Source of the DNA: Comamonas resistens
GTDB taxonomy: Bacteria > Pseudomonadota > Gammaproteobacteria > Burkholderiales > Burkholderiaceae_C
DNA: 64,000 nucleotides
Reading direction: 5' to 3'
NCBI RefSeq assembly: GCF_030064165.1
Contig: NZ_CP125947.1
Span: 1,612,001 to 1,676,000, forward strand
Numbering within the stretch: the first letter of the stretch is position 1; every line of letters begins with the position of its first letter. Of the stretch, positions 29,496-52,882 are shown in pieces. The translations under genes and the position numbers were made by a program. The notes beneath the pieces were generated by a model. That model searched no databases and was not told where the DNA came from. It saw nothing but the letters and a program-made list of their open reading frames with translations.

Positions 29496-30137
29496 ATGAA
29501 GAAACTGAACAAAGTGGCGATGTTGTTTGCCTCTGCTGCCCTCGTGACGGCCGCCGGCGCACAAGTTAAGGCTGCAAACGGCGGCAACGTCATCGACAAC
29601 TGGCAAAACGGCACCAGCGAGCTGGTGTGGAAGAACGGCACCAACGAACTGTGCTGGCGCGATGCCAACTGGACCCCTGCAACTGCCGCTGTTGATTGCG
29701 ACGGTGCACTGAAGGCTCAAGTTGCTGCTCCTGCTCCCGCTGTTGTTGCTCCTCCCGTTGCTCCTCAGCCTGCTGTGGCCTCCAAGGTTACTTACTCTGC
29801 AGACGCTTTCTTCGACTTCGACAAGTCGGTGCTGAAGCCCGCAGGCAAGGCCAAGCTGGATGACCTGACCGGCAAGATCAAGGACATCAACCTGGAAGTC
29901 ATCATTGCCGTGGGTCACACTGACTCCGTGGGCTCTGCTGCTTACAACCAGAAGTTGTCCGTGCGTCGCGCTGAAGCTGTGAAGGCTTATCTGGTGTCCA
30001 AGGGCATCGAAAAGAGCCGCGTGTACACCGAAGGCAAGGGCAAGACCCAGCCCGTGGCAGACAACAAGACTGCTGCTGGCCGCGCCCAGAACCGTCGCGT
30101 GGAAATTGAAGTGGTGGGCACTCGCGCTGCTCAGTAA
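29496..30137 (+). CDS. OmpA family outer membrane protein
   Basis: The 213-residue protein has a clear signal peptide (MKKLNKVAMLFASAALVTAAGAQ). A short N-terminal part of about 65 residues contains tandem NGT-(S/N)EL-(V/C)W motifs, followed by an Ala/Pro/Val linker. The C-terminal OmpA-like peptidoglycan-binding domain has FFDFDKSVLKPAGKAKLDDL and the conserved HTDSVGS and NRRVEIEV. It lacks the 8-strand barrel, so it probably links the periplasm to peptidoglycan. AGAGGAGA lies just before the ATG. A terminator follows at once. Confidence 0.9.
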   Translation: MKKLNKVAMLFASAALVTAAGAQVKAANGGNVIDNWQNGTSELVWKNGTNELCWRDANWTPATAAVDCDGALKAQVAAPAPAVVAPPVAPQPAVASKVTYSADAFFDFDKSVLKPAGKAKLDDLTGKIKDINLEVIIAVGHTDSVGSAAYNQKLSVRRAEAVKAYLVSKGIEKSRVYTEGKGKTQPVADNKTAAGRAQNRRVEIEVVGTRAAQ

Positions 30138-31619: not shown

Positions 31620-31996
31620 GGGGCTGTCCTGGTTTCGACGTGGGTTCGGGATCGGTGCGGTGCATGTCGAGCTTGAGTGATGCTCGTAAATCTCCATTCA
31701 AAAAACTAACTGCAAACGACGAACGTTTCGCACTCGCCGCTTAATCCGGTGAGCCTTGCAACAGCACGCTAGTGGGCTGGGCAAGGGGGTAGCAATACCT
31801 CCCGGCTGCAAGGGAATTTACATTAGCTGGCTGGATACCGGGCTTCTTGGTATTTGGCGAGATTTAAGGAAGCTGGCTACCCAAGCAGCGTGTGCCTGCG
31901 GGGTTTGGGTGGCGAGATCTAAAACAGAGCACTAAACATGTAGATCTGTCCGACGAAGGCTTACGGACGCGGGTTCAATTCCCGCCAGCTCCACCA
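31620..31996 (+). ncRNA. ssrA: Transfer-messenger RNA (tmRNA)
   Basis: The one-piece tmRNA starts GGGGCTG and ends CAGCTCCACCA, so the acceptor stem has the alanine G3:U70 pair. The T arm is GGGTTCAATTCCC. The reading frame from 31712 encodes the tag ANDERFALAA followed by TAA at 31742. The molecule rescues stalled ribosomes and tags proteins for degradation. It is intact and marks the border between host genes and the mobile element. Confidence 0.97.
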
Positions 31997-45499: not shown

Positions 45500-46254
45500 T
45501 GCTGGACTTCAATCACCGCCCCAAGATCCACGAGCAGATCGGCGCGCTCATCGATACCGCGCTGAGCGCCGAACGTGACACCCAACCCCGGCGCAACTAT
45601 CTCGGCGCGTCGCGGTTGGGCGTTGCCTGCGAGAGGGCGCTGCAATACGAGTATCTGCAGACACCGGTCGATCCTGGCCGGGACATGCCAGGTCGCGTTC
45701 TGCGCGTCTTCGAGGTGGGCCATGTCCTCGAAGAATTGGCCATCCGCTGGCTGCGCATGGCCGGATTCGATCTGTACACGCAAAAGGCCAGTGGCGGTCA
45801 GTTCGGATTTTCCGTCGCAGGCGGCCGCATCCAAGGCCACGTCGATGGTGTGCTGAACGGCGGTCCCGCAGCGCTAGGAATGAGCTATCCGGCCCTGTGG
45901 GAGTGCAAGACCATGAACGACAAATCCTGGCGGGACACGGTCAAGCACGGCGTCAGCAAATCCAAACCGGTTTATGCCGCGCAGATGGCCATCTATCAGG
46001 CCTACATGGAGGCCAGCGTTCCGGGCATCTCTGCGAACCCGGCGTTGTTCACCGCCATCAACAAGGACTCCGAAGAGATCTGGTTCGAGCTGGTTCCGTT
46101 CGACGGCGGCCTGGCGCAGCGTATGTCCGATCGCGCGGTTCGGGTCATCACGGCAACGGACAGCCAGGAACTCCTGCCGCGCCATGCGACCACGCCAACG
46201 CATGTCGAGTGCAAGTTCTGCCCCTGGCAGGACCGCTGTTGGAGTTCGACATGA
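45499..46254 (+). CDS. Cas4/AddB-like PD-(D/E)XK nuclease with an Fe-S cluster
   Basis: The 251-residue protein has the PD-(D/E)XK core: His114 and Asp116 in GHVDG, Glu135 and Lys137 in ECKT, and a downstream QAYMEA-type helix. Four cysteines, Cys44 near the N-terminus and Cys238, Cys241 and Cys247 at the C-terminus (CKFCPWQDRC), match the 4Fe-4S signature of Cas4 and AddB nucleases. No CRISPR array or other cas gene is nearby, so it is probably the phage recombination exonuclease that feeds the Sak4-like annealase. Confidence 0.82.
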   Translation: MLDFNHRPKIHEQIGALIDTALSAERDTQPRRNYLGASRLGVACERALQYEYLQTPVDPGRDMPGRVLRVFEVGHVLEELAIRWLRMAGFDLYTQKASGGQFGFSVAGGRIQGHVDGVLNGGPAALGMSYPALWECKTMNDKSWRDTVKHGVSKSKPVYAAQMAIYQAYMEASVPGISANPALFTAINKDSEEIWFELVPFDGGLAQRMSDRAVRVITATDSQELLPRHATTPTHVECKFCPWQDRCWSST

Positions 46255-48440
46255 TGGCCGACAACATCATCTGGCTCGACTTCAATGACGCGCCCGAGCA
46301 GCGCGACGAACTGACCTCTGACACCGATGCCTTGCGCGCTGGCTTGCTGGATCGACTTGAGGCCGTCCTCCACTACCTGTTTCCGCAGGGGCGCATCCGG
46401 GGTGGCAAGTTCTACGTCGGTGATGTCGATGGCAACCCGGGTAAGAGTCTGGTGGTTGAGCTGGACGGACCACGGCGAGGCCTGTGGAAAGACTTCTCCA
46501 CCGACGAGGGCGGCGACATCATCGATCTGTGGGCGCGCTCGCAGGGCCGCTCCGCCCGCAGCGACTTCCCTCGCATCGCTGGTGAGATCCGGCAGTGGCT
46601 CGGTCTTGCACAACCGAACATCACGCCAATGCGCCGCGATGTTCGCAGCGTGCCGATGGATGAACTCGGCGCTTACACCGCCAAGTGGGACTATCAGTCA
46701 CCCGAAGGCGAACTGATCGCCTGCGTCTACCGCTACGACCCACCGACGGGCAAGGAATATCGCCCCTGGGATGTCCGCGCCCGCATGTGGCGCGCCCCCG
46801 ACCCCAGGCCGCTTTACAACCTACCGGCCATCGCGAAAGCGCGAGAGGTCGTCCTGGTCGAAGGCGAGAAGTGTGCGGCTGCGTTGATCGCCTCCGGCAT
46901 TGCCGCCACCACCGCAATGAACGGCGCCAAGGCACCAGTCGACAAAACCGACTGGCGTCCATTAGCCGGGAAATCCGTGGTCATCTGGCCGGACCGGGAT
47001 GCACCCGGTTGGGACTACGCCGAGAGCGCGGCTCGCGCTTGCGTGGTGGCGGGCAGCACATCCGTGGCCATCCTGGTGCCGCCCGCCGACAAGCCGGCCA
47101 AGTGGGATGCCGCAGACGCTGTCGAAGAAGGCTTCGACTGCGCGGCATTCATCGCCCAGGGTGACCGACGGATCGTAAAGGCTGCGGCTCCTTCTCTGCC
47201 TACCTTCACGCTCGGCGAACTGCTCGACGATAACTCACCGCTGCCACCCGATCTGATCTCTCCGCGCGTGCTGACGCCGGCTGGCATGTTGGTGTTCGGC
47301 GGTGCGCCCAAGGTCGGCAAGAGCGACTTCCTGTTGTCTTGGTTGGCGCACATGGCGGCTGGCGCTGTATTCCTCGGCATGCAGCCACCCCGTCCGCTGC
47401 GCGTGTTCTACCTGCAGGCCGAGGTCCAGTACCACTACCTGCGCGAGCGCGTGAAGGATGTCCGCCTGCCGTCCCACCGGCTTCTGGACGCCCGCGCCAA
47501 CTTCGTCGCCACACCACAGTTGCGGCTGGTGCTCGATGACGCGGGACTGGCACAGGTGATCCCGGCGATCGCGCAGGCTTTCGGCGGCGAGCCTCCCGAC
47601 ATCATCGCCATCGATCCGATCCGCAATGTGTTCGACGGCGGCGACGCCGGCGGCGAGAACGATAACGGCGCCATGCTGTTCTTCCTGTCCCAGCGGGTGG
47701 AGCGCATTCGCCAGGCGGTCAATCCCGACGCTGGGATCATTCTTGCGCACCACACCCGGAAACTGGGCAAGAAGCAGTTTGAGGAGGACCCGTTTCAGGC
47801 ACTGGCCGGCGCGGGAAGTCTGCGCGGCTACTACTCGACCGGGATGTTGTTGTTCAGGCCCGACGAGACCAGAACGACCCGCCAGCTGATCTTCGAGCTG
47901 CGCAATGGCGCGGGTATCCCGCAACGGCACGTCGACAAGATCAACGGCGAGTGGCGCGAGGTCGATGCCAACGAGCGGCTGGTGATGAAGGACTACGGCG
48001 AGCGCTTGGATGCCGAGCGCCGCCGCAAGCGCGACGCCATCCTTCAGATCTTGTTCGAGGAGGCCAGCAACGGGCGCTGCTACACCGCCAATCAGTTCGC
48101 GGAGTCCTTCGAGGGCAAGGCAGGCCTGGGCGGCGAGCGCACCATCCGCGAACGCGTCTCCGCGCTCTCGACGCAGGGCTACATCAAATACTTCCGCAAC
48201 GCTGCGGACTACGGTCTGCCGTCCAGCGGCCGCACCAAGTTCGGCTATCTCTGCGTCGAAGGCATGGTGCTGCGCATGCCTGCGGGCGATGTCGACACGG
48301 CCACCGGCGAGTTGCCGATGCGCGAGTACACAGTACTCCCGACCCATTACAAGTGCCCGCATTCCGGCGCCTCGATGCCTGTCGAGAACCCCGACGTGTG
48401 GGTCTACCACGACGAATTGAACGACCCGGAGGCCTCATGA
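46251..48440 (+). CDS. Phage primase-helicase (TOPRIM plus RepA-like ATPase)
   Basis: The 729-residue protein combines two replication functions. The N-terminal part has a TOPRIM-like module: VVLVEGEKCAAAL near residue 200 and VIWPDRDAPG near 245. The C-terminal part is a RepA/DnaB-like ATPase with Walker A GAPKVGKS near 350 and Walker B PDIIAIDPI near 450. A winged-helix-like segment follows around residue 600. There is no obvious zinc finger. It starts at ATG 46251 with a 4-bp overlap; ATG 46254 is also possible. The AGTTGGCA repeat cluster begins 15 bp after its stop. Confidence 0.85.
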   Translation: MMADNIIWLDFNDAPEQRDELTSDTDALRAGLLDRLEAVLHYLFPQGRIRGGKFYVGDVDGNPGKSLVVELDGPRRGLWKDFSTDEGGDIIDLWARSQGRSARSDFPRIAGEIRQWLGLAQPNITPMRRDVRSVPMDELGAYTAKWDYQSPEGELIACVYRYDPPTGKEYRPWDVRARMWRAPDPRPLYNLPAIAKAREVVLVEGEKCAAALIASGIAATTAMNGAKAPVDKTDWRPLAGKSVVIWPDRDAPGWDYAESAARACVVAGSTSVAILVPPADKPAKWDAADAVEEGFDCAAFIAQGDRRIVKAAAPSLPTFTLGELLDDNSPLPPDLISPRVLTPAGMLVFGGAPKVGKSDFLLSWLAHMAAGAVFLGMQPPRPLRVFYLQAEVQYHYLRERVKDVRLPSHRLLDARANFVATPQLRLVLDDAGLAQVIPAIAQAFGGEPPDIIAIDPIRNVFDGGDAGGENDNGAMLFFLSQRVERIRQAVNPDAGIILAHHTRKLGKKQFEEDPFQALAGAGSLRGYYSTGMLLFRPDETRTTRQLIFELRNGAGIPQRHVDKINGEWREVDANERLVMKDYGERLDAERRRKRDAILQILFEEASNGRCYTANQFAESFEGKAGLGGERTIRERVSALSTQGYIKYFRNAADYGLPSSGRTKFGYLCVEGMVLRMPAGDVDTATGELPMREYTVLPTHYKCPHSGASMPVENPDVWVYHDELNDPEAS

Positions 48441-48454
48441 ACATTGCCCAATCG

Positions 48455-48653
48455 GCAGTTGGCAGCAGCGTTGCCAACTGCACTCACGTCCTTGCCAACT
48501 ACACGCAGTTGGCAAACCCCTGCCAACTGGAATCCCTGGCAAATCAAGGCGCTGCCGGAATTACCCCGCAGTTGGCAGTTGGCAACACTGCCAACTTGCC
48601 AACTGGCGCAAACCCGCGTGGTTGCTGGACTTTCTCGCGTTCTCCAGTTGGCG
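48455..48653. repeat. Iteron-like cluster of AGTTGGCA repeats, candidate replication origin
   Basis: The 8-mer AGTTGGCA occurs four times on plus (48457, 48507, 48570, 48577) and five times on minus as TGCCAACT (48472, 48493, 48521, 48589, 48597), plus one imperfect copy at 48646. The copies form stems: a 10-bp stem at 48455-48481, a 9-bp stem at 48492-48515, and paired tandem copies at 48570-48604. It lies directly after the primase-helicase gene. An initiator or origin role is inferred. Confidence 0.75.
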
Positions 48654-48669
48654 AAAACTCCCCTTCCTA

Positions 48670-48711
48670 CTACGTAGGAGAGGGACCCGAAGGTCCCTCC
48701 ACCCTACGTAG
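48670..48711. repeat. Interrupted cruciform between primase and RuvC genes
   Basis: Two copies of the palindrome CTACGTAG (48670-48677, 48704-48711) flank an inner perfect hairpin AGGGACC-CGAA-GGTCCCT (48681-48698). Outer arms pair over 9 bp. There is no T tract, so it does not look like a terminator. Confidence 0.7.
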
Positions 48712-48754
48712 GGGGCTTGCCGGCCACCCCGGATCAGATCATCGGCGGCCATCC

Positions 48755-49216
48755 ATGCCCTCGATCCTGGCACTGGATCTCGGCACCCAGACAGGCTGGG
48801 CGCTGCGCGACCGAGATGGCGCAGTGACCAGCGGATCGGAATCCTTCAAGCCGCAACGCTTCGAGGGTGGCGGCATGCGCTACCTGCGATTCAAACGCTG
48901 GCTCACCGAGATCAAGCAGTCCTGCGACGGCATCGACGCCGTGTACTTCGAGGAGGTGCGCCGCCACGCCGGGGTCGATGCAGCCCACGCCTACGGCGGC
49001 TTCATGGCCCACCTCACCGCATGGTGCGAGCACCACCAGATCCCGTACCAAGGCGTCTCGGTGGGTACGATCAAGAAGCACGCCACCGGCAAGGGCAACG
49101 CGAACAAGGATCAGATGATCAGCGCCGCCCGGTTGCGTGGCCACGCACCGGCTGACGATAACGAAGCCGATGCCATTGCGCTGTTGCACTGGGCCATCGA
49201 GACGCTGGAGGTGTGA
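48755..49216 (+). CDS. RuvC-like Holliday junction resolvase (RNase H fold)
   Basis: The 153-residue protein starts ILALDLGTQTGWALRD, the first catalytic strand with Asp of RuvC/RNase H-fold nucleases. Glu in VYFEEVRRHAG and the C-terminal DDNEADAIALLHW supply the other acidic residues. Phage resolvases of this kind debranch recombination or replication intermediates before packaging. I chose ATG 48755. An in-frame ATG at 48437 would translate the repeat cluster into low-complexity sequence and is unlikely. Confidence 0.85.
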   Translation: MPSILALDLGTQTGWALRDRDGAVTSGSESFKPQRFEGGGMRYLRFKRWLTEIKQSCDGIDAVYFEEVRRHAGVDAAHAYGGFMAHLTAWCEHHQIPYQGVSVGTIKKHATGKGNANKDQMISAARLRGHAPADDNEADAIALLHWAIETLEV

Positions 49217-49217
49217 G

Positions 49218-49430
49218 ATGAAGGTTCCGACTCCCGCCTACCGCTGTGCCCTGGCTCGACTGCAACCCGATCCGCGCCCCGATCCGGAGCAGATCAAGCG
49301 TGAGGGCTGGCGCGACCAGCAGATCCTGGTGATCTCGCCCGACGACGCACGGCTCGACTGGGTCGAACGCGAACTGCTGCGCCGGATCGGCGATCGGCTG
49401 TACGGGGCGAAGGAGCGTCGACATGGCTGA
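49218..49430 (+). CDS. Small phage protein, function unknown
   Basis: This 70-residue protein starts at ATG 49218, 1 bp after the resolvase stop codon, and overlaps the next gene by 8 bp. It has Arg/Asp-rich helices (PEQIKREGWRDQQILVISPDDARLDWVERELLRRIG). No motif is recognised. The tight packing and good ribosome-site context support it as real. Confidence 0.6.
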   Translation: MKVPTPAYRCALARLQPDPRPDPEQIKREGWRDQQILVISPDDARLDWVERELLRRIGDRLYGAKERRHG

Positions 49431-49827
49431 ATGGACGATCGAAACCGTGGCCGACCGGTTCATCGAGGCCGCAAGAACCGCCCACCGCCTTCCTCCGGTT
49501 CGCGTGCAGGGCTACTTCAACTGCTGGCCGGCGATCAAACGCATGCCATGGGAAAACCTCGGCGCGGAGCCGCCGGTCTACCGCTTTCCTCCCGACCCGG
49601 CTGCCATCGACCGGATGATGGAGACGATGCGTTGGGTGCAATGGCTGGAGGAGGAACAGCGCCACCTCGTCTGGATGCGGGCACAGCGCTACCCATGGAA
49701 GGAGGTCTGCTGCCGCTTTGGCTGCGACCGCACGACCGCCTGGCGCCGTTGGCAGAAGGCATTGGTGGTGGTCGTCGAGCAACTGCGGACGGCGAATAGA
49801 CATGGAGATGCGGTCAACTGCCACTGA
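49423..49827 (+). CDS. DUF6362-like phage protein with C-terminal HTH
   Basis: The 134-residue protein begins MAEWTIETVADRFIEAARTAHRLPPVR, matching the DUF6362 phage family as I recall it. The C-terminal part (RYPWKEVCCRFGCDRTTAWRRWQKAL) is a helix-turn-helix of sigma-70 region 4 type. It is the last gene of the early operon, a common position for a late-gene activator. That role is inferred. Confidence 0.7.
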   Translation: MAEWTIETVADRFIEAARTAHRLPPVRVQGYFNCWPAIKRMPWENLGAEPPVYRFPPDPAAIDRMMETMRWVQWLEEEQRHLVWMRAQRYPWKEVCCRFGCDRTTAWRRWQKALVVVVEQLRTANRHGDAVNCH

Positions 49828-50094
49828 CGTTGCGTGTAGTTGCGAAAAATCGCGACGCCGTTCGGAATCCTGCGGAACGATGCGGGTTTCAGCCACTTTT
49901 TGGCGCGCAACATCCTGAGGTTTTTTCGCTAGTATTACGGCTAATCTTGCGAGCATTGGGTGAGTGAAGGCCACGGAGCGATCTGTGGCCTTCGTCGTTT
50001 CCGGCCCGCGATGGCCATGACCTGTTGCGACGGGTCCTTCCTGGCCAGGAAGCAATGCGGGGGGCGCGAGCGCGACGCTTTTTTAGCGTCAGGG

Positions 50095-50143
50095 TGCGAA
50101 CCAAGGTTCGCACGGTTCGCAGTTCGCACCCGGTACGTTCGCA
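50095..50143. repeat. GTTCGCA repeat cluster
   Basis: Five copies of a 7-mer occur in 49 bp: TGCGAAC at 50095 on plus, then GTTCGCA at 50106, 50115, 50122 and 50137. The first two form an 18-bp palindrome TGCGAACC-AA-GGTTCGCA. It resembles a multi-site operator. Confidence 0.65.
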
Positions 50144-50151
50144 CCAACTCC

Positions 50152-50190
50152 AAAACCCGCCCACGGTTGTCGTCGGCGGGTTTTCTATTT
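50152..50190 (+). terminator. Terminator-like hairpin before the first methyltransferase
   Basis: Stem AAAACCCGCC/GGCGGGTTTT is followed by CTATTTTC. It lies just 15 bp before the proposed TTG start, so it may act as an attenuator rather than an end point. Confidence 0.55.
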
Positions 50191-50204
50191 TCGGGACACC
50201 ATCT

Positions 50205-51620
50205 TTGAATACGCTCAACGTCGAGTACCGCAAGGTCGAGGCGCTGATTCCCTACGCCCGCAATCCGCGCACGCACGCCGAAAGCCAGATCGCCAAGATC
50301 GCGGCCAGCATCGTCGAGTACGGCTGGACGAATCCGATCCTGGTCGACGGCGACAACGGCATCATCGCCGGACACGGGCGTTTGGCCGCTGCGCGCAAAC
50401 TCGGCCTGGATCAGGTGCCGGTGATCGAACTGGCCCACCTGACCGTCGCGCAAAAGCGGGCACTGGTGATTGCCGACAACCGACTGGCACTGGATGCAGG
50501 CTGGGACGAAGAGATGCTGGCCCTTGAGCTGGCCGAGTTGTCCGACGCGGGATACGACCTCGCTCTGACCGGCTTCGAGGAAGCCGAGATCGAGGCTCTG
50601 CTCACCAGTGCGGTGGCCGTCGCAGATGATGAATCCGAGTCCGAAGCCGACGAGCCTGACGCGGCTGACGACGTGCCAGACGCGCCCGTCGTGGCGGTGT
50701 CCCGGCCGGGCGATGTCTGGGCGATTGGCCCGCACCGCCTGATCTGTGGCGACGCCACCGACCGGAACGTGGTCGCTGCGCTGATGCAGGGTGACCTCTC
50801 TCGCCTGTGTTTCACCTCGCCGCCCTACGGCAACCAGCGCGACTACACCTCGGGTGGCATCTCCGATTGGGATGGCCTGATGCGTGGCGTGTTCGCGCAT
50901 CTGCCGATGGCAGGCGACGGTCAGGTGCTGGTCAACCTGGGCCTGATCCACCGCGACAACGAGGTGATCCCGTATTGGGACGCTTGGCTATCTTGGATGC
51001 GCCAGCAGGGCTGGCGGCGCTTTGCGTGGTACGTCTGGGATCAGGGGCCGGGGATGCCCGGCGACTGGGCAGGCCGCTTCGCGCCGAGCTTCGAGTTCGT
51101 CTTCCACTTCAACCGGGAGAGCCGCAAGCCGAACAAGATCGTCCCCTGCAAGCACGCAGGCCAGGAATCCCACCTGCGCGCCGACGGGTCGTCCACCGCC
51201 ATGCGCGGCAAGGATGGCGAGGTGGGCGGCTGGACGCACAAGGGTCAGCCGACGCAGGACACCCGCATCCCCGACTCGGTGATCCGCGTGATGCGCCACA
51301 AGGGCAAGATCGGCCAGGACATCGACCACCCGGCCGTGTTTCCGGTGGCGCTGCCGGTGTTCGTCATCGAGGCCTATACGGATGCGGGCGACATCGTGTT
51401 CGAACCCTTTGGCGGCAGCGGCACAACGATGCTGGCTGCCGAGCGAACGGGCCGCATCTGCCGCAGTGTGGAAATCGCGCCGGAGTACGTGGACGTCGCA
51501 ATCAAACGCTTCCAGCAAAACCACCCCGGCGTGCCGATCACCTTGATCGCCACGGGTCAGTCCTTCGAGCAGGTGGCAGCGGATCGCACCACCACCCTCG
51601 ATGCCGAGGTGTTGGCATGA
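50205..51620 (+). CDS. ParB-domain DNA methyltransferase, SPPY type
   Basis: The 471-residue protein joins an N-terminal ParB/sulfiredoxin-like domain (residues 1 to about 95; GHGRLAAARKLGLDQVPVIEL) to a beta-class DNA methyltransferase. The catalytic motif IV is TSPPYGNQ and the SAM motif I, FEPFGGSGTTMLA, comes near the C-terminus. SPPY is usual in N4-cytosine enzymes, but N6-adenine activity is not excluded. No restriction partner is visible; in phages such enzymes shield the DNA. I chose TTG at 50205, because no ATG lies near the domain start. Confidence 0.85.
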   Translation: MNTLNVEYRKVEALIPYARNPRTHAESQIAKIAASIVEYGWTNPILVDGDNGIIAGHGRLAAARKLGLDQVPVIELAHLTVAQKRALVIADNRLALDAGWDEEMLALELAELSDAGYDLALTGFEEAEIEALLTSAVAVADDESESEADEPDAADDVPDAPVVAVSRPGDVWAIGPHRLICGDATDRNVVAALMQGDLSRLCFTSPPYGNQRDYTSGGISDWDGLMRGVFAHLPMAGDGQVLVNLGLIHRDNEVIPYWDAWLSWMRQQGWRRFAWYVWDQGPGMPGDWAGRFAPSFEFVFHFNRESRKPNKIVPCKHAGQESHLRADGSSTAMRGKDGEVGGWTHKGQPTQDTRIPDSVIRVMRHKGKIGQDIDHPAVFPVALPVFVIEAYTDAGDIVFEPFGGSGTTMLAAERTGRICRSVEIAPEYVDVAIKRFQQNHPGVPITLIATGQSFEQVAADRTTTLDAEVLA

Positions 51621-52882
51621 ACTGGTTGGCAGACAAGATTGAGCAGTGGCCGACAGCCAAACTGCTGCCCTATGTCCGCAACGCGCGGACGCACTCGGAT
51701 GAACAGGTGGCGCAGATCGCCGCCAGCATCGCGGAGTTCGGATTCACCAATCCGATCCTGGCGGGCAGCGACGGCATCATCGTCGCTGGCCACGGTCGTC
51801 TCGCCGCCGCCCAGAAGTTGGGTCTGGAACGGGTACCGGTGGTCGTCCTCGACCATTTGACGCCAACCCAACGCCGAGCTCTGGTGATCGCAGACAACCG
51901 CATCGCGGAGAACGCGGGCTGGGACGATGCGATGCTCCGGATCGAACTGGAAGCCTTGCAACTCGAAGGTTTCGATCTGGACATCACCGGCTTTGACGCC
52001 GACGCGCTGGCCGAACTGATCGCGGGCGACGAGCCGGACAATGAGGGACAGACCGATGAGGATGCGGTACCGGAGGTTGGCGAAATTCCAATATCGCGCC
52101 CGGGCGATGTCTGGATCATGGGCCAGCACCGACTGCTGTGCGGCGACTCGACCGTGGCAGAGAGCTATGCCCGGCTGATGCAAGGCGACGTGGCAGACAT
52201 GGTCTTCACCGACCCGCCGTACAACGTGAACTACGCCAACAGTGCCAAGGACAAGATGCGCGGCAAGGATCGCGCAATCCTCAACGACAACTTGGGCGAT
52301 GGCTTCTACGACTTCCTGTTGGCAGCATTGACGCCCACCGTGGCGAACTGCCGGGGCGGCATCTATGTGGCGATGTCATCCAGCGAGCTGGATGTGCTGC
52401 AGGCCGCCTTCCGCTCCGCCGGAGGCAAATGGTCGACCTTCATCATCTGGGCCAAGAACACTTTCACCTTGGGGCGCGCCGACTACCAGCGCCAGTACGA
52501 GCCGATCCTCTACGGATGGCCCGAGGGCGCACAGCGCCACTGGTGTGGCGACCGCGACCAGGGTGACGTCTGGAGCATCAAGAAGCCGCAGAAGAACGAT
52601 CTGCATCCGACCATGAAACCGGTCGAGCTGGTCGAGCGGGCGATCCGCAATTCGAGCCGCCCGGGCAACGTGGTGCTCGATCCGTTCGGTGGTTCTGGCA
52701 CAACGCTGATTGCGGCCGAAAAGTCAGGCCGTGTCGCGCGGCTGATCGAACTCGACCCGAAGTACGTGGATGTGATCGTGCGCCGGTGGGAGGACTTCAC
52801 CGGCAAGCAGGCCACCCGCGAGGCGGATGGTGTGCTATTCGATGTCGTTTCAAGCCACCTGGGATCTAATCGGGGTCAGTAA
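51617..52882 (+). CDS. ParB-domain DNA methyltransferase, DPPY type
   Basis: The 421-residue paralogue overlaps the previous gene by 4 bp and repeats its layout. The ParB-like N-terminus (LLPYVRNARTHSDEQVAQIAASI, GHGRLAAAQKLG) is followed by a methyltransferase with motif IV TDPPYNVNY and motif I LDPFGGSGTTLIA. DPPY indicates an N6-adenine methyltransferase. The recognition sequence is unknown. Together the two genes look like a tandem duplication followed by divergence of target chemistry. Confidence 0.87.
   Translation: MNWLADKIEQWPTAKLLPYVRNARTHSDEQVAQIAASIAEFGFTNPILAGSDGIIVAGHGRLAAAQKLGLERVPVVVLDHLTPTQRRALVIADNRIAENAGWDDAMLRIELEALQLEGFDLDITGFDADALAELIAGDEPDNEGQTDEDAVPEVGEIPISRPGDVWIMGQHRLLCGDSTVAESYARLMQGDVADMVFTDPPYNVNYANSAKDKMRGKDRAILNDNLGDGFYDFLLAALTPTVANCRGGIYVAMSSSELDVLQAAFRSAGGKWSTFIIWAKNTFTLGRADYQRQYEPILYGWPEGAQRHWCGDRDQGDVWSIKKPQKNDLHPTMKPVELVERAIRNSSRPGNVVLDPFGGSGTTLIAAEKSGRVARLIELDPKYVDVIVRRWEDFTGKQATREADGVLFDVVSSHLGSNRGQ

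Follow-up and report, generated by a model that had tools for sequence, protein, structure and literature searches.

A 64,000-nucleotide stretch of the genome of Comamonas resistens (contig NZ_CP125947.1, positions 1,612,001 to 1,676,000; hereafter the window) contains a prophage in which a dense array of short repeats (iterons) directly follows a primase-helicase gene. We analyzed this array in the window and in related loci. The array is likely to be the replication origin of the prophage, with the primase-helicase encoded directly upstream as its initiator. An earlier note, made from the letters of the window, had proposed a phage origin at this site. Three lines of inference from sequence comparison now support the proposal: an array accompanies the full protein in 236 of 259 relatives, its sequence covaries with the primase-helicase, and the array is unconstrained as protein.

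The nine exact copies of AGTTGGCA reported in that note, four direct and five inverted within 148 bp (48457-48604), were all confirmed at their positions (Table 1). Two other exact copies are present elsewhere in the window, at 29663 and 40729. Shuffling of the whole window gave a mean of 2.15 copies with a maximum of 6, which corresponds to about 0.005 copies per 148 bp; the expectation by chance is indeed far below one. When 200-bp stretches were scanned across the window, no 8-mer outside the array had more than four copies. A search of the 5.3-Mb genome for the repeat, followed by up to 28 bases and an inverted repeat, returned the array as the sole match. A tenth copy, AGTTGGCG, differs from AGTTGGCA by one mismatch.

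Relatives (L005-L397) were obtained by scanning named genomes and viral contigs for the primase-helicase and RuvC, and the phage records L398-L400 were added. Of the resulting 396 loci, 391 match the primase-helicase profile and 272 reach its C-terminal tenth. The array test covered the 259 of these 272 in which a stop codon is present and 200 bases or more follow it; the set is redundant. An array was considered significant when the 8-mer array beat 20 of 20 shuffles. The check proposed in the earlier note, a search for the array at the same locus in relatives, was made in this set: an array lies directly after the primase-helicase gene in 236 of the 259 loci, two of these being TA runs in Wolbachia phage WO. 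Where the match stops short of the C-terminal part, a significant array was found in 20 of 92 loci, and in gp17 of AcaML1, which is devoid of this C-terminal half, Pfam finds a D5_N helicase instead. The array therefore goes mainly with the half of the protein that carries the AAA_25 helicase and the winged helix. Some relatives of the N-terminal half only (L387, L393, L315, L310-L313, L297, L317) carry arrays with motifs of another kind (CGTTGCCA, CGTTCCCA, ATTTCCAG, GCCGGGAA), which perhaps constitute a second initiator-repeat family.

Both orientations are present in all 93 arrays examined, i.e. in the window and in 92 representatives. The common layout comprises two clusters separated by a gap of 37-56 bp, with a last site about 49 bp beyond the right cluster; the spacing between sites is often 7-8, 14-15 or 20-22. 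Layouts vary between lineages. As regards the distribution of the protein, a replication protein with 95-100% identity occurs in Cupriavidus, Pseudomonas, Stutzerimonas, Ectothiorhodospira and metagenome-assembled genomes (MAGs) of Thiobacillus and Geobacter (L005-L012, L026, L066), which suggests a very wide recent spread, although the MAG titles may be misbinned. RepA of the Wolbachia phage WO (L398, L399) is a full-length relative with 34-35% identity.

The consensus repeat differs by lineage and yet is common to all copies within one array. The lineage repeats include CAGTTGGCA, AAGTTGGCA, CAGATTGCA, CAGTTTGCA, CAGTGGGCA, CAGATGGCA, CAGTCGGCA, CAGAATGCA, CAGAATCCA and others. For the analysis of covariation we used 227 loci, which were reduced to 92 by removal of near-duplicates; loci with no significant array, with the ambiguous orientation CAGCAACTC (4 loci) or with no AG at positions 2-3 had been dropped beforehand. 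The motif was framed to CAGNNNGCA, and divergent motifs such as CAGTTTGAC may be misplaced in this frame. The C-terminal alignment revealed one helix that varies along with the repeat. With G at motif position 6, the protein has R633 in 59 of 60 loci, and a gap in the remaining one. With T at this position (32 loci), residue 633 is N in 16 loci, another residue different from R in 10 and R in 6. Among the 80 loci in which R630 is intact there is no exception: R633 occurs with G6 (59/59) and another residue with T6 (21/21). This is illustrated by near pairs, in which GLGANRTIRER goes together with CAGTTGGCA (L351), and GLGANRTINER with CAGTTTGCA or CAGATTGCA. Arginine is a standard reader of G, and asparagine would be a suitable reader of the A that pairs with T.

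The influence of kinship was controlled with a tree of 90 loci, which was computed from residues 1-560 only and hence leaves out the winged-helix domain. The tree implies at least 10 changes of base 6. On average, the change at R633 is concordant with that of base 6 in 7.7 of 8 independent contrasts (p 0.0078, range to 0.0156), while the next best of 641 columns, S708, reaches 4.4. The best columns for base 6 in proteins encoded nearby reach 2.5 (RuvC, 107 columns), 1.9 (DUF6362, 114 columns) and 3.4 (nuclease, 201 columns); on the same subsets R633 scores 6.9, 5.8 and 5.9 of 6-7 contrasts. Hence, among the binders proposed in the earlier note, the covariation points to the primase-helicase, whereas the columns of the DUF6362-like protein did not track the repeat. 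For base 1, which is C or A, the wing residues 658 and 660 score highest, agreeing in 7.7 and 6.8 contrasts out of about 12; this link is suggestive.

The rule was also applied to a newly fetched set of 24 proteins, the last 160 residues of which are not identical to earlier ones, although many are near relatives. Seventeen of them had a framed motif and the core, four were unframed or had no core (L443, L471, L477, L478), two were incomplete and one had no motif. In the new loci with R630 and a framed motif the rule holds in 12 of 12 cases. L443 has both R630 and R633 and yielded no framed motif.

In the primase-helicase, Pfam identifies AAA_25 (5e-20), and the protein matches PHROG 239, DNA primase/helicase (5e-70). 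The Toprim-type acidic residues E204, E206, D248 and D250 are invariant in 30 sequences, with the Pfam match to Toprim (0.076) remaining under the cut-off. An AlphaFold2 model of residues 566-729 (predicted local distance difference test, pLDDT, 82.5) has three helices (573-606, 613-619 and 629-642) and then strands; among the fold matches listed, most are winged helices (MarR, Fur/Zur, Z-alpha, MCM), and every match is weak. The full-length model (pLDDT 79.6; predicted template modelling score 0.42) matches Twinkle, T7 gp4 and RSF1010 RepA in Foldseek. In both models R630 and R633 are located in one helix, a turn apart; in the segment model this is the third helix, which is the position of a recognition helix. 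The winged-helix profile gave a single match to sequences in the PDB (E 0.29), and the full-length profile gave none at E 0.001. Primase, helicase and winged helix are thus predicted to be joined in one protein.

From these patterns we infer the following mode of action. The initiator would combine a T7-gp4/Twinkle-like primase with a ring helicase of the RSF1010-RepA type and a C-terminal winged helix. The latter would bind the 8-9 bp repeats (CAGTTGGCA in the window) in either orientation, whereby R633 and R630 of the recognition helix would contact and read the two Gs (positions 6 and 7); motif position 1 would be influenced by the wing. Several subunits could then gather on the two clusters and melt the nearby DNA, perhaps at the gap between the clusters; the helicase would then be threaded and priming would begin. 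In the loci with this layout (51/92) the gap is on average the AT-richest part, with a GC content of 0.44 compared to 0.50 in the clusters and 0.61 downstream.

Several observations weigh against this interpretation. The gap in the window itself is not AT-rich (GC 0.61), and the minimum of the GC skew near 48-49 kb is only a local one, lower values being reached further on. The R633 rule fails when R630 is missing: all six loci that combine R633 with T6 lack R630, and of the five new framed loci without R630, two agree with the rule and three disagree. By plain mutual information, R633 is only third for base 6, after A651 and E629; this ranking ignores the tree and is therefore confounded by kinship. 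No column stands out as the partner of base 4 or base 5. R630 is at the top of the plain scores for base 7, but this relation is based on just 3 tree contrasts and is not independent of the tree. In addition, no significant array follows the gene in 23 of the 259 loci that have the full protein, including one clade (L035, L069, L245, L346), and in Wolbachia phage WO, whose proteins keep R630 and R633, the sequence after the gene yielded only TA runs.

A further conserved element, a long stem-loop, is located directly after the last iteron. In a sample of 31 of 47 distinct loci plus the window, folding of this region gave z < -2 in 32 of 32 loci (mean -4.45), compared to 1 of 31 controls (mean -0.21), and 28 of the 32 loci have one stem-loop of at least 12 pairs. 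Compensatory changes are evident in the first helix, where three pairs are altered on both sides in 9, 13 and 14 of the 32 sequences. Between 48654 and 48726 the window contains three mutually complementary arms. The stem-loop could belong to the origin, or else act as an RNA switch or as a terminator.

This element is also relevant for the question of whether the array is an operator or attenuator, through which the primase-helicase, or a protein with the same specificity, regulates transcription into RuvC and beyond, while replication starts elsewhere. The array is situated between two genes of an apparent operon (ATGA overlap), the conserved stem-loop follows it and in L348 precedes a T-run, and the covariation tells who binds and not why. 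We nevertheless consider regulation of this kind unlikely; 8-11 sites in two spaced clusters would be heavy for an operator, and comparable initiators bind origin repeats, according to descriptions of P4 alpha (PMC4234260) and the Pri-Rep protein of phage-inducible chromosomal islands (PICIs) of E. coli (PMC6092414).

The earlier note had also described the repeats as adjacent hairpins and suggested a foldback origin. The repeats would in this case act as hairpins in single-stranded DNA or messenger RNA. Adjacent hairpins are indeed present in the window copy, and the predicted folding of the array region is strong, with z -5.9 in the window and values from -4.1 to -10.1 in all 10 relatives that were tried. 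However, any array with both orientations folds well, and inverted neighbors are not favored across relatives. In 63 distinct layouts, 175 of 396 neighboring sites (within 30 bp) were inverted; random orientation gives 211 +/- 9.6, and 0 of 1000 shuffles were as low. Since inverted neighbors are rarer than random, the data speak against a foldback origin made of the repeats. The layouts vary by lineage, and the covariation with a recognition helix would fit a reading of double-stranded DNA better. A foldback origin or RNA element is in our view very unlikely.

The position of the array relative to the genes needs a correction. The earlier note had placed it between the primase-helicase and RuvC genes; it does follow the former, but it lies inside an open reading frame (ORF) that starts with an ATG (48437) overlapping the primase-helicase stop codon and runs in frame into RuvC. 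At least 52 of 92 loci have no interruption of this frame between the overlap ATG and RuvC, and in 65 of the 75 loci with the overlap ATG the first 100 codons are free of stops, compared to 0 and 12 loci for the other two frames. The repeats could on these grounds form a repeat domain at the N-terminus of the RuvC-like protein, and the earlier note had named conservation at the protein level as the result that would contradict an origin. In a comparison of 1501 pairs from 108 unique ORFs, the differences per codon position were 0.252/0.254/0.265 in the array and 0.084/0.061/0.304 in RuvC. The array has no codon bias, and on these values we rejected the coding explanation, leaving the origin unrefuted. 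In addition, repeat units occupy different frames within the same ORF, and in some other lineages the frame closes before RuvC. A coding function of the repeats is accordingly highly improbable. In the window the frame is held open across array and leader (48437-48754) with an unconstrained peptide. The frame seems to be kept open without a conserved peptide, and perhaps it serves coupled translation. Least probable of all is a partition site bound by one of two ParB-domain methyltransferase proteins; their genes are located 1.5-4 kb downstream, but the covariation singles out the primase-helicase in comparison with RuvC, nuclease and DUF6362 columns.

A replication origin read by the primase-helicase has parallels in known systems. 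The origin of the satellite phage P4 has short repeats in both orientations, a property shared by the arrays described here (93/93 loci). The helicase of P4 alpha is of the SF3/D5 kind, whereas the present one is AAA_25/RepA-like. In P4 the same repeats (type I iterons) recur in a second cis region, crr; in contrast, one dense array was found in the window and genome. In classical plasmid iteron origins the repeats are 17-22 bp long and in one orientation, which is not matched by 8-9 bp repeats in both orientations. To our knowledge T7 gp4, which together with Twinkle provides the best structural matches of the full-length model, is devoid of an origin-reading winged helix. P4 alpha is described as a single protein that binds origin repeats with a winged helix and then unwinds and primes (PMC4234260). 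By prediction, the three modules are combined in one protein here too. The likeness is in the way of working; the winged helix has no sequence match to a solved chain (best E 0.29). By analogy, the system may work like P4 alpha/ori with a different helicase, and because this helicase is of another kind we do not file it as P4-type.

In the E. coli PICIs two iteron sets are reported to flank an AT-rich region, and the replicon suffers when rep or ori is deleted (PMC6092414). As with Pri-Rep of PICIs and of the Staphylococcus aureus pathogenicity islands, the initiator adjoins its origin; differences are that the present element is a prophage with its own head genes and not a satellite, that the helicase is another one and that the window lacks an AT-rich gap. 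The helicase domain aligns with RepA of RSF1010 (1nlf, 1olo, 1g8y), which also has an iteron origin. Initiator, helicase and primase of the RSF1010 RepA/RepB/RepC replicon are given as separate polypeptides (PMC4234260), whereas one chain combines them here. In the PICI-like element (PLE) of Vibrio cholerae, iterons and RepA are reported to diversify together under antagonism (PMC8263062, PMC7145576), and the ICP1 nuclease Odn, which mimics RepA, may select for this diversification (PMC8263062). Iterons and initiator diversify together here as well, but PLE has a RepA_N initiator, iterons of about 30 bp and no helicase or primase.

In the open-licence literature we recognized no description of this system. 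On balance we lean slightly towards the view that it represents a family of phage origins that has not been described before, with the origin reader built into a primase-helicase of the T7-gp4/RepA type. This reader and the scattered repeats, 5-13 in number, would have switched specificity together at least 10 times following the rule R633-G6, N633-T6 and R630 on G7, and the origin would lie in an open frame that is not conserved as protein and would end in the conserved stem-loop.

The region that bears the array is a prophage. The genes upstream of the primase-helicase encode a Sak4-like annealing protein, a helicase and a Cas4-type nuclease (Pfam, PHROG). The array is followed by genes for the RuvC-like resolvase, DUF6362 and ParB-methyltransferase proteins, terminase, portal, protease and major head protein. 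The two consecutive ORFs for ParB-domain DNA methyltransferases (50025-52882) both match PHROG 498. Another repeat, GTGCGAAC, has four copies inside 200 bp in the region 49961-50281. A transfer-messenger RNA gene (31620-31996) upstream of the prophage is a possible integration site; a search for an att repeat between 31.6-34 kb and downstream gave nothing clear, just one 15-base match. An RNA-family search of 46000-50000 gave three weak matches, every one under the gathering score.

Table 1. Positions of the array, the primase-helicase and associated features in the window.
Feature	Position	Strand	Remark
Primase-helicase, 729 residues: primase-like N-terminal half, AAA_25 (RSF1010 RepA-like) helicase, predicted C-terminal winged helix	46251..48440	+	
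AAA_25 helicase domain, residues 327-506	47229..47768	+	Pfam
Segment modelled alone, residues 566-729, with predicted winged helix	47946..48437	+	
Predicted recognition helix, residues 629-642	48135..48176	+	segment model; 629-641 in full-length model
R630 codon, putative partner of G at motif position 7	48138..48140	+	
R633 codon, putative reader of G at motif position 6	48147..48149	+	
ORF from ATGA overlap through array into RuvC	48437..49216	+	RuvC core from about 48755
Iteron 1	48457..48464	+	exact AGTTGGCA
Iteron 2	48472..48479	-	exact AGTTGGCA
Iteron 3	48493..48500	-	exact AGTTGGCA
Iteron 4	48507..48514	+	exact AGTTGGCA
Iteron 5, closes left cluster	48521..48528	-	exact AGTTGGCA
Inter-cluster gap, candidate melting region by position	48529..48569	unstranded	
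Iteron 6	48570..48577	+	exact AGTTGGCA
Iteron 7, one base in common with iteron 6	48577..48584	+	exact AGTTGGCA
Iteron 8	48589..48596	-	exact AGTTGGCA
Iteron 9	48597..48604	-	exact AGTTGGCA
Iteron 10, AGTTGGCG	48646..48653	+	one mismatch; 49-bp spacing kept in many relatives
Conserved long stem-loop directly after last iteron	48666..48713	+	z -3.4 in the window

Together, these comparisons suggest that the tail of the primase-helicase reads the repeats to start the copying of phage DNA, and that protein and repeats change together repeatedly. It is an old question how an initiator and its whole set of origin repeats can switch specificity together without killing the replicon. The loci described here provide a natural series, with close pairs that differ in one key residue and in one base changed in every copy of the array; because of these pairs, the question is testable with natural proteins and natural DNA. 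The array would also be a simple marker for origins in a phage family that is spread over several proteobacterial classes.
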